Assembly (NCBI GenBank): GCA_039555135.1
Contig: CP114179.1
Span: forward strand, 2,356,001-2,420,000
Source of the DNA: Phycisphaeraceae bacterium D3-23
GTDB lineage: Bacteria > Planctomycetota > Phycisphaerae > Phycisphaerales > Phycisphaeraceae
DNA: 64,000 nt
Direction of reading: 5' to 3'
A model generated the notes under the pieces. The model was not told where the DNA came from. It ran no database searches and saw only the letters and a list, made by a program, of their open reading frames with translations. Each line of letters opens with the position of its first letter. Within the stretch, counting starts at the first letter, position 1. Both the position numbers and the translations under genes were made by a program. Shown piece after piece: positions 42,279 to 47,018 of the stretch.

Positions 42279-42403
42279 GGTGCCACACAACTGCCCGGTC
42301 CGCCGGGCTGCTGTGTGCGATTGAAACATTCTTGTTGCGAGTACAAAGACCGTTGTATCCCGCACACCGCAGCCCTCCGAGCCGGGCAGTTGTGTGGCAC
42401 CCG
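42279..42403. repeat. Long inverted repeat, GTGCCACACAACTG family copy 3
   Basis: GGGTGCCACACAACTGCCCG and CGGGCAGTTGTGTGGCACCC are a perfect 20-bp inverted pair; inner arms GGGCTGCTGTGTGCG and CGCACACCGCAGCCC continue. The spacer is unrelated to those of the other copies. It fills most of the divergent gap before 42535. Confidence 0.88.
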
Positions 42404-42534
42404 GCATCGAACCTACAGGCCCCAGCCCCGTGAAAAACCCAAACCTTTTCTTAGCGGCGACAACCCCCGGCGCGTTAGAATACGCCCGCAATTCACTGGT
42501 GGACTTCTTCCTACTACGCCCAAGGGGTGAAACG

Positions 42535-44850
42535 ATGCGACAACGATTGAACGGTGTGTTTTGGCTGGCGCTGGCGGTGCTGCTGGTGCCGATGACCGCG
42601 ATGGCCCAGCCGATGGCGGACCTGACGCCCGACGAGGCGATCCTCTACATGGGGTGGCGCGGGGCCAACGACATGGGCGACGACTACGAGGGCTCACTGA
42701 TGCAGGGCATGGTCGAGCAGACCGGGCTCCTCGATGCGCTGCCCGAGCTTTTGAGCGCGGCCGAGTCGTTCGCCGCAGAAGAAAACGCGGGCGACGAAGA
42801 GATGATGCGGGTGCTCGAGTCGATGTCCGCGATCGGGCAGTCGGCGTGGAGCAACGGCGCGGCGGTGTACGTGCTTGCGCCTGAAGACGCGGTCAACGGC
42901 CCGCCGTTCCCGCGCATCGCGTTCCTCTTCCGGCGTGGCGGCGCGGACGAGCCCGAGCTCCGCGCCGCGCTGGCGGACCTCGTGCAGATGGCGAACGAGG
43001 CCGAGGAAATCCCGATGTTCATGGGCGTGACGGGCGATGCGTTGTTCCTGTCGATCGGCTTCGACGCGGCCGAGCTTCCCGACGACAACATGCTCGCCGA
43101 CGCCGCGCCGTTCCAGGACGCGCTCGAACAGGTGCAGGCCGACGCCGCGATGGTGCTCTACCTCAACGGCGCGGAGATGATCGAACAGATTGACGCGTTT
43201 GTCGCGGGGCTCAAGGAGCAGGCCGAGGAATGGGGCGAAGAGCCCGACCCGTCGCTCGAGCTTTGGCCGACGATGCGGGACGTGACCGGTCTGGGCGGAG
43301 TGAACCAGCTCATCATGACCGCGGGCATCGTCGAGCGCCGGTGGGAGACGCGGATGTTTATGGACGCTCCCGCGCCGCGCACCGGCATCCTCTCGCTGAT
43401 CGATAACGACCCGATCGACGCCGACCAGCTCCTGCATGTGCCCAAGACCGCGACCTTTGTTCAGGCCGGCTCGGTCGACCCGTCCCGCGTGCTTGAAGTC
43501 ACCCGCGACATCCTGGGCGCGATCGACCCGGGCATGGTCGACGAGCTCGACAACGCCCTCGAAGACGCCAGCGAGGAGGTCGGCTTCGATATCGAACGCG
43601 ACCTGGTCAACGGCATCGGCCCGACGTGGAGCGTCTACATCGACCCGATGATCGCGGGCAACAACCTGGCCAGCATCGTCATCGTCAACGAGCTGCGCGA
43701 CGCCGACGCGGTCGCGACGGCGCTGATGCGGCTGTGCAACATGGGCAACGACCTGCTGGAAGACGAGATGTTAGATGAGCCCATCAACATCCGATTCCTC
43801 AGCCGGCAGATGGGCGGCGAGTCGATCGTGTCGCTGGGCGTGCCGTTCGTGTCGCCCTCGTGGATGGTGCACGACGGCAAGCTGTACTTTGCGCTGTACC
43901 CGCAGGCGCTGGAGATGGCGCTCGACCAGTCGGGCGACGCCGACGACTCGATCCTCGCCAACGCGACGTTCCGCGAGACGATGGCGCGGCTGGGCCAGAC
44001 CCATGTCGTCGGCGAGCCGCAGGCCGGCTCGCCCGCGGCGACGGCGATCAGCTTCACGGACCTGCCCGAGACCGCGCCCGACGGCTACGGCATGATGCTC
44101 ATGATCGCGCAGGCCATCGGCGGCGCGGCCGAGATGACCACCGGCGAACCCGCCACGTTCCAGCTCCCGCCCATCGGCAAGCTGATGCCCTTCCTCGAAC
44201 CCGCCGGGCAGGCCGCCTGGATCGACGAGGCCGGCCTCCACGCCCGCGCGATGGAGCCGTTCCCCGGCTCGTCACTGCTCGGGCCGGGCAAGGGCATGGA
44301 GAGCAGCGCGCTGGTCGCCGCGCCCATGGCCGTGGGCGTCATGCTCCCCGCGATGGGCGCCGCACGACAGTCCGCTCGACGCATGCAAGCCCACACCCAG
44401 GCCCGCGGCATCGGGATGGGCATGATCATCTACGCCGAAGGCAACAATGATGAAGCGCCCGACGACATCGCCCTGCTGGTCCAAGGCAACTTTGTCACGC
44501 CCGAGTACCTTGTCGCGCCGAACTCCCTGCGTGCCCAGCCGATCCCCTTCGGCTTCGACGACTGGGAAGCAGACCGGCAGATGCGCTTCCACCGCGAGAA
44601 CAGTTCGTTCGTCCTCGTGCCCGTGGGCGACATGGGCGAGATCGATGAGCCGTGGAACACCCTCCTCCTCTTCCAGCGGCCCGACGACGCCAACGGCTGG
44701 GGCGAGGGCATCGTCGTCGTCTGGGGCGACGGCCACACGACCTGGGAGCACGACGTCGACTGGATCGACCACATGCTCGAAGAGCAGACCGACATGACCA
44801 TGGACGAGCTGATCGAGCGGCAGGTCGGGTTCGAGGGGGACGGCGAGTAG
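42535..44850 (+). CDS. Large secreted protein with pseudopilin-like C-terminal domain
   Basis: A 771-residue exported protein. A signal peptide (FWLALAVLLVPMTAMAQ) is followed by about 550 residues that resemble the DUF3352-type extracytoplasmic domains (VPKTATFVQAGSVDPSRVLE, DIERDLVNGIGPTWSVYIDP, LASIVIVNELRDADAVATAL). The last 170 residues copy the body of a planctomycete pseudopilin without its membrane helix: LPAMGAARQSARRMQAHTQA, EGNNDEAPDDIALLVQGNFV, VVVWGDGHTTWEHD. Normally that body follows a prepilin leader, so this is a domain fusion. The start has AAGGGG upstream and a terminator follows at 44907. Function unknown. Confidence 0.82.
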   Translation: MRQRLNGVFWLALAVLLVPMTAMAQPMADLTPDEAILYMGWRGANDMGDDYEGSLMQGMVEQTGLLDALPELLSAAESFAAEENAGDEEMMRVLESMSAIGQSAWSNGAAVYVLAPEDAVNGPPFPRIAFLFRRGGADEPELRAALADLVQMANEAEEIPMFMGVTGDALFLSIGFDAAELPDDNMLADAAPFQDALEQVQADAAMVLYLNGAEMIEQIDAFVAGLKEQAEEWGEEPDPSLELWPTMRDVTGLGGVNQLIMTAGIVERRWETRMFMDAPAPRTGILSLIDNDPIDADQLLHVPKTATFVQAGSVDPSRVLEVTRDILGAIDPGMVDELDNALEDASEEVGFDIERDLVNGIGPTWSVYIDPMIAGNNLASIVIVNELRDADAVATALMRLCNMGNDLLEDEMLDEPINIRFLSRQMGGESIVSLGVPFVSPSWMVHDGKLYFALYPQALEMALDQSGDADDSILANATFRETMARLGQTHVVGEPQAGSPAATAISFTDLPETAPDGYGMMLMIAQAIGGAAEMTTGEPATFQLPPIGKLMPFLEPAGQAAWIDEAGLHARAMEPFPGSSLLGPGKGMESSALVAAPMAVGVMLPAMGAARQSARRMQAHTQARGIGMGMIIYAEGNNDEAPDDIALLVQGNFVTPEYLVAPNSLRAQPIPFGFDDWEADRQMRFHRENSSFVLVPVGDMGEIDEPWNTLLLFQRPDDANGWGEGIVVVWGDGHTTWEHDVDWIDHMLEEQTDMTMDELIERQVGFEGDGE

Positions 44851-45202: not shown

Positions 45203-45228
45203 AGAGCCGACCTACCCCAAGGATCACC

Positions 45229-46191
45229 ATGCTCAGAAAGATGAAACCCACGACCAACCTGATGGCGGCGGCCTTGATCGGGCTGCCCGCGATGCTCACC
45301 GCCCAGTCCGCTTCGGGGGGCTGAGGCTCTTCGGGTGTCTGCACGGGCGTGCAGAATAGTATTGCGTCGGCCCAGAGTGTCATCGAACATGGCGAACTCG
45401 CAACTGCGTACGACCGTTTACGTGCCGTCATCACCGAGGCCGAGGAAGCTAATGTCGCGCGTGTTCGCGACATCCGAGGTCCGCTGAGCGACCTCGTCAA
45501 GACGCTCGAGCACCGTGCGATGGCCGCGTTCGAGGAAGCACACGCCGACTACTTCGCGGGCAACCACGAAGCGGCGCTGGCGGCGTTTGAAGAACTCGCC
45601 GCGCTCGAAGGCCTCGAAGCCGCGCGCGAAGCCGTTGGCGAGCTGCGTAAAGAAGACAGCCGTGTCGAGTGGCGCACGCTCCGCGACACCGTCACGAGCC
45701 AGATCGATCAGGCCGACTTCGCAGCAGCGAACGAGGGGCTCCGCGCGATGGAACGCCGCGCCCGCGGCGTCGGTTACAAAGACACGATGGACGAACTGAT
45801 CGTCGCGTACAGCGATGTTGCTGCATCACACGTCGAACAGGCCAGGGACGCCATCGAAGCCGAGCGCTACGACGACGCCTACGGCACACTGCTCGAAGTC
45901 TCCCGCCTGACCCCGCTCCGCGCCGCCGCCGTTGAAGCACGCCAGCTCCTAGGTCAGTACCGCAACGATCCGGGCATGCGGCAGGCCCAGCTCGAGTACG
46001 AGTCGGCCGATATGCTCGCCGACATCAAGCAGGAACTCGACGACGCCGATGGCCGCAACAACGCCCAAGCGGTCCGCGAAGGCGCACAGCGTAAGCTCAC
46101 CCAGCTTGTCACACGCTACGAGGGCACCCGCGCCGCCGCAGAAGCCGAACGCCTTGCCGGCGAATTGAGCGAACAGCTCGCGGCCCGCTAA
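45229..46191 (+). CDS. Secreted helical protein with in-frame TGA; candidate selenoprotein
   Basis: ATG 45229 has AAGGA 6 bases upstream and encodes a signal peptide (NLMAAALIGLPAMLTAQSA). Codon 32 is TGA (45322-45324), giving SGG-U-GSSGVC in the same frame as 289 further sense codons. The rest is an acidic helical domain with TPR-like pairs (YFAGNHEAALAAFEELAALE, IEAERYDDAYGTLLEVSRLT). A perfect 7-bp hairpin with loop GGGC begins 13 bases after the TGA. Three readings are possible: selenocysteine insertion, a nonsense mutation, or a separate start (GTG 45349) without signal peptide. Intact frame on both sides and a good ribosome-binding site favour read-through or a very recent mutation. Sec biosynthesis genes are not in the window. 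Confidence 0.6.
45338..45355 (+). promoter_or_regulatory. SECIS-like hairpin downstream of the in-frame TGA
   Basis: TCTGCAC pairs perfectly with GTGCAGA around the tetraloop GGGC. The loop starts 20 bases after the TGA and begins with G, which fits the general description of bacterial SECIS elements (a stem-loop within the coding region just 3' of UGA with a G early in the loop). The match is by geometry only. Confidence 0.4.
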
Positions 46192-46255: not shown

Positions 46256-46288
46256 CAGCCCGGCGCATCAGTGCCGGGCTGTTTTTTT
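46256..46288 (+). terminator. Intrinsic terminator
   Basis: CAGCCCGGC and GCCGGGCTG pair around GCATCAGT and are followed by seven T, ending the TGA-containing gene. Between the stop and the terminator is a short direct repeat (GGACCACACGC twice, at about 46195 and 46210). Confidence 0.9.
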
Positions 46289-46446: not shown

Positions 46447-46489
46447 GGCCACCGAATCCCTGCAATTTGTAGACAGAAACCCCGCCCTC

Positions 46490-47018
46490 ATGGACGCACA
46501 CCCCCCCACCCCCGACGCGCCCGCTACGAAGCCCGGCCGCCCCGCCTACCTGGGCTGGGGGATCGCGTTCCTCCTCGTCGCGCTGTCGTGGGTCGGTGCG
46601 TGCGCCCTGCGTGGCAACACCGCGCCCGGTACATCTCGACGGCTGGCAGTCCGGGCTCGACGCGGGCATGGCCGCCGCGCAGGAAGCCGACCGCCCGATG
46701 CTCGTCATGTTCACCGCCGACTGGTGCGGCCCCTGCCAGGTGCTCAAGAAGGAAGTCCTCCAGACCACCCCCGCCGAGCAGGCGATCGCCGACGGCTTCG
46801 TGCCCGTCATGGTCGACCTCACCGACCAGTCTTCCAACAACCCCAACATGCCCGCCGCCCAGCGCTACGGCGTCACGGGCATCCCGCACCTCATCCTCAC
46901 CGACACCCGGGGCAACAAGATCCCCAACACGCTGCCCTACCCCAACCGCACCTACCCCCGCACCCCCGACGGGTTTGTCGACTGGCTCAACAGCGCCAAC
47001 CGCACCGCCGCGCGGTAG
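46490..47018 (+). CDS. Membrane-anchored thioredoxin-like protein, frameshifted by one base
   Basis: ATG 46490 opens a frame with an N-terminal anchor (LGWGIAFLLVALSWVGACAL); the thioredoxin domain continues in the +1 frame. Removing one C from the CCC at 46625-46627 joins them as RGNTAPVHLDGWQSGLDAGM. The domain has the redox motif FTADWCGPCQVLKKEVL, a cis-Pro loop TGIPHLILTD, and a usual thioredoxin length, so it is of the periplasmic DsbD/TlpA-like disulfide reductase type. As written, only 46596-47018 (GTG start) encodes the domain without anchor. A sequencing insertion is the simplest explanation; a pseudogene is possible. It is flanked by two copies of the same long inverted repeat. Confidence 0.78.

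Follow-up and report, generated by a model that had tools for sequence, protein, structure and literature searches.

An in-frame TGA behind a signal peptide predicts an exported, all-helical selenoprotein in Phycisphaerae

Most of the 119 bacterial selenoprotein families listed in a 2026 inventory are thioredoxin-like proteins carrying a UxxC or CxxU motif (PMC13188914). Selenocysteine (Sec) insertion is there described by a bacterial SECIS (bSECIS) model, which has a loop of 3-9 nt whose first or second base is G, a stem of 4-16 bp, a spacing of 16-37 nt and an energy of at most -7.5 kcal/mol (PMC13188914). Here we compare with these systems a gene that lies in a window of 64,000 nucleotides of Phycisphaeraceae bacterium D3-23 (contig CP114179.1, positions 2,356,001 to 2,420,000), the whole stretch of DNA that was analysed.

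A preliminary description of the window had proposed that positions 45229-46191 encode either an undescribed exported selenoprotein or a gene with a recent nonsense mutation. When the sequence was read again, the ribosome-binding site, the ATG at 45229, the signal peptide, the TGA at codon 32 and the open frame to the TAA were all found as described, and the Cys placed six residues past the TGA is C38; the number of sense codons following the TGA had been given as 289 and is 288. The TGA is the single in-frame stop and lies just past the signal-peptide-like N-terminus. From the comparisons set out below, the gene very probably encodes a genuine selenoprotein in which this TGA is read as Sec. 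The features of the locus are as follows.

45219 to 45223, + strand: AAGGA, a Shine-Dalgarno-like sequence 5 nt upstream of the ATG at 45229, from sequence.
45229 to 46191, + strand: predicted selenoprotein gene, 320 residues including U32, TAA stop at 46189-46191; orthologues of near-full length at 56% (TGA) and 37% (Cys) identity.
45229 to 45315, + strand: signal peptide, residues 1-29, from sequence, unstructured in the AF2 model; the cleavage site is putative.
45322 to 45324, + strand: predicted Sec codon TGA (U32); TGA in one orthologue (G002), TGC in the other (G003).
45334 to 46185, + strand: all-helical body, residues 36-319, with 13 predicted helices; AF2 model, mean pLDDT 72.8, pTM 0.46, built from a two-sequence alignment and of moderate confidence.
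45338 to 45355, + strand: hairpin resembling a bacterial SECIS, stem of 7 bp, loop GGGC, -9.7 kcal/mol; within four of four bSECIS constraints (PMC13188914).
45340 to 45342, + strand: candidate resolving Cys C38 (TGC), invariant in three of three orthologues.
45781 to 46173, + strand: C-terminal helical domain, approximately residues 185-315; hhalign probability 96%, a value inflated by the picking of partners with the same profile.
46256 to 46288, + strand: terminator-like hairpin with a T run between the selenoprotein and thioredoxin genes, seen by eye; a similar structure follows the orthologue in L012.

Orthologues were searched for in 101 genomes, namely the window's own (G000) and 100 relatives, and two were found besides the window's own. 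The first (G002; contig JAUHZU010000002.1, a Phycisphaerae MAG) belongs to another species of the genus, shares 56% protein identity and likewise has TGA, in frame, at the position matching codon 32. The second (G003; 37% identity) is an uninterrupted ORF with its signal peptide in frame and has TGC at that codon (SCKSGSC). Cys is the typical counterpart of Sec. The alignment of homologues at codon 32, put forward earlier as a check, returned TGA and TGC and no random sense codon. The local sequences read SGG-U-GSSGVC in the window, AGQ-U-SSGAC in G002 and AKS-C-KSGSC in G003, so that the U/C32 column (U read as C) and C38 are invariant in all three and the motif can be written U-x4-5-C. Signal-peptide cleavage follows the -3/-1 rule, by which the peptides would be cut between SAS and GGU, TAA and GQU, and VLA and KSC, respectively, placing U or C at mature residue 3 in each protein.

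The genes of G000 and G002 have diverged to a dS of ~1.1, with dN/dS of ~0.24 for the codons preceding the TGA and ~0.35 for those following it, both values a sign of purifying selection. A neutral stop, alone in its frame, would not be expected to persist at this divergence. What rises above chance is the retention of TGA, frame and hairpin at dS ~1.1, together with Cys at the same column of a third genome. No further full-length member was recovered from ~400 genomes each in the order, the class and the phylum, plus 51 of the family. The known distribution comprises three genomes of one genus, and the family may be wider. Two kinds of more distant candidate were set aside. An N-terminal match in G126 (L041) was judged to reflect the signal peptide; this ORF, of 211 aa, begins like a lipoprotein and lacks a second Cys in the vicinity. 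L060 and L061, each scored with one TGA in frame, end at that TGA as a normal stop.

The search for selA, selB, selC and selD that had been suggested found all of them in the host genome. They form a cluster (L013, 5226-13624) in the order selD, putative selenate ABC transporter, selB, selA and tRNA-Sec (anticodon TCA); SelB scores over its cut-off, as does the transporter embedded between selD and selB (TIGR04553). SelD has an in-frame TGA of its own (DCGG-U-AGK) and is itself a predicted selenoprotein. The arrangement is conserved in G002, where selD to selA follow one another as in the host and tRNA-Sec lies just after selA. VPGUxxT-type thioredoxin-like proteins with an in-frame TGA also occur in both genomes (L047 ~1615 and L046 ~1615), both as partial matches below the NCBIfam cut-off. 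In G003 neither SelA nor SelD was matched, and every match to the SelB model falls below cut-off; with the genome 89% complete, the Sec genes are likely, but not certainly, absent. G000 and G002 have Sec genes and TGA, and neither was found in G003; hence TGA or Cys goes with presence or absence of the Sec genes in the three of three genomes that have the gene. This history of Sec and Cys rests on few points, three orthologues in one genus. Taken together, two species with TGA, a Cys counterpart and the Sec genes support Sec insertion at codon 32 on comparative grounds.

The hairpin downstream of the TGA (UCUGCAC-GGGC-GUGCAGA) falls within the codons for V-C-T-G-V-Q-N. Its seven perfect pairs, its GGGC loop and the loop start 20 nt past the TGA are as first reported, and folding, at -9.7 kcal/mol, keeps it within all limits of the bSECIS model. 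The hairpin of the G002 orthologue (6 bp, loop AGGU, 17 nt, -8.5 kcal/mol) lies within all of these constraints as well, and the Cys gene of G003 lacks a hairpin fitting the model. By itself the hairpin is weak evidence, consistent with a SECIS and not decisive: a perfect stem of at least 7 bp, in range and with G as the first or second loop base, accompanies ~2% of the TGA triplets in the window, and a 6-bp stem in range accompanies ~5%. Folding z-scores against shuffled sequences were not significant and the energies are ordinary. The stem is unchanged between the two TGA genes, differences being confined to the loop and the outermost pair, and the comparison therefore yields no compensatory evidence for the hairpin. 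The first of the two earlier proposals, an exported selenoprotein family not described before, is supported by the conserved TGA, the Cys of G003, the host Sec cluster and the bSECIS-fitting hairpins.

In the AF2 model the protein has no strands and no helix before residue 36, and residues 1-31 are of very low confidence. No Pfam or NCBIfam family scored over cut-off for the protein, nor did Pfam give any thioredoxin-type match. Searches of the PDB by sequence and by fold returned no convincing match; the structure matches were weak and TPR-like, none with E < 0.001, and the only TPR family found in Pfam was TPR_20 in the Cys orthologue, at 13.8 bits against a gathering threshold of 25. The C-terminal domain aligns with that of exported-looking thioredoxin/TlpA-like proteins in three genomes (G058, G848 and G847).

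We propose that the hairpin starting 13 nt past the UGA would direct SelB with Sec-tRNA(Sec) to decode codon 32, and that the 320-residue product would be exported and its signal peptide cut off. The mature helical protein would then carry Sec within its first few residues and the invariant Cys 5-6 residues further on. A flexible N-terminal tail may hold U32 and C38, the latter invariant in all three sequences, as a reversible selenenylsulfide. Such a tail could carry out redox reactions of the thiol/disulfide or peroxide type outside the cytoplasm, and the helical body, which resembles modules joined elsewhere to thioredoxin-like domains, might bind a partner or substrate. A redox role as a thiol or selenol is probable, judging from the U...C pair, although the protein has neither a thioredoxin fold nor a solved homologue. 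The N-terminal U/C pair could instead serve as a ligand for a metal or metalloid, or as a selenium carrier, a role also compatible with a selenoprotein. The predicted mature N-terminus sets Sec or Cys at about residue 3, near the free amine, in a possible metal-binding arrangement, and the protein has no thioredoxin fold and a tail that is unstructured in the AF2 model; however, no further invariant ligand residues lie nearby, and the C-terminal domain resembles ones joined to thioredoxin-like domains. We regard a ligand or carrier role as unlikely.

Several features of the neighbourhood were also recorded. The exported thioredoxin-like gene downstream (46596-47018) was considered as an operon partner and rejected. 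The terminator-like hairpin separates it from the selenoprotein gene; its orthologues in G001 and G004 stand in genomes that yielded no relative of the selenoprotein gene, and in G003 it is not adjacent to the Cys gene. Given the hairpin and this occurrence without the selenoprotein gene, the adjacency of the thioredoxin gene does not make a good case for partnership. This gene (CGPC; window 46479-47018) shows an apparent frameshift near 46600-46630 relative to the intact G002 orthologue (L043, 10533-11066), which may be either a sequencing error or decay. Upstream, an ORF of 818 aa (42394-44850) matches no Pfam family and is missing from the corresponding region of G002, which is syntenic in other respects.

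Three further readings dispense with Sec at codon 32. The locus could yield two products: translation of a short leader would stop at the TGA, and a cytoplasmic protein would arise from an internal start; an ORF of 280 aa does begin at GTG 45349. Yet the Cys orthologue is a single uninterrupted ORF with its signal peptide in the same frame, conserved residues (SSG-C-TG) lie between the TGA and that GTG, and the coincidence of TGA, hairpin and Cys would be left unexplained; two products are thus very improbable. The gene could also be broken by a recent nonsense mutation, or the TGA could be an artefact replacing a sense codon, as the frame holds one stop only and the frameshifted-looking thioredoxin gene ~400 bp downstream suggests small errors or decay nearby. 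Against this, a genome assembled independently has TGA at the corresponding codon despite a dS of ~1.1, purifying selection acts on both sides, and the third genome has Cys. The same TGA in an independent genome at 56% identity excludes the recent nonsense mutation first considered, and as a whole, mutation or error is scarcely credible. Ordinary suppression, with Trp or some other residue inserted, would restore the frame, as would any readthrough, but this reading is hardly tenable: the TGA-less orthologue has Cys at this position, tRNA-Sec and SelB are present in the host, and TGA tracks the Sec genes in all three gene-bearing genomes.

Decoding of codon 32 as Sec adds a new family to the predicted bacterial selenoproteome in Phycisphaerae, and it offers a clean comparison of Sec and Cys inside one genus, where the absence of Sec genes accompanies Cys in the same protein. 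Read with the standard code, the gene falls into a 31-residue fragment and a truncated ORF, and such genes are therefore easily missed. The protein also suggests redox chemistry on an N-terminal tail and not within a thioredoxin fold.

The locus shares with known bacterial selenoproteins an in-frame UGA followed by a SECIS-like hairpin, a Cys homologue and Sec genes in the genome, but no listed family has the motif in an exported all-helical protein (PMC13188914). None of the 119 families and subfamilies of that inventory was alike when compared by names, domains, motifs and NCBIfam models rather than by member sequences (PMC13188914). Set apart by names, domains and motifs, the family is undescribed in the selenoprotein lists searched. 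The VPGUxxT family (NF041382) is likewise a selenoprotein family with an in-frame TGA in both TGA genomes, and its C-terminus weakly matches that of the G002 orthologue (E 0.23, 10.7 bits against a curated 350); the NF041382 model gave no match to the window protein. NF041382 has a thioredoxin-like domain and the VPGUxxT motif, whereas the new protein has neither. Planctomycete thioredoxin/TlpA-like proteins (L040, L060 and L061) are exported-looking too, and their C-terminal helical domain aligns with residues 185-315. They possess an N-terminal thioredoxin- or redoxin-like domain and no recoded TGA; in its place the new protein has a short U-x4-5-C tail and extra helices. This may amount, somewhat tentatively, to a new architecture, namely an exported helical selenoprotein without a thioredoxin fold, with Sec at about mature residue 3 in a mobile selenenylsulfide arm, borne by a helical module that is elsewhere attached to thioredoxin domains.
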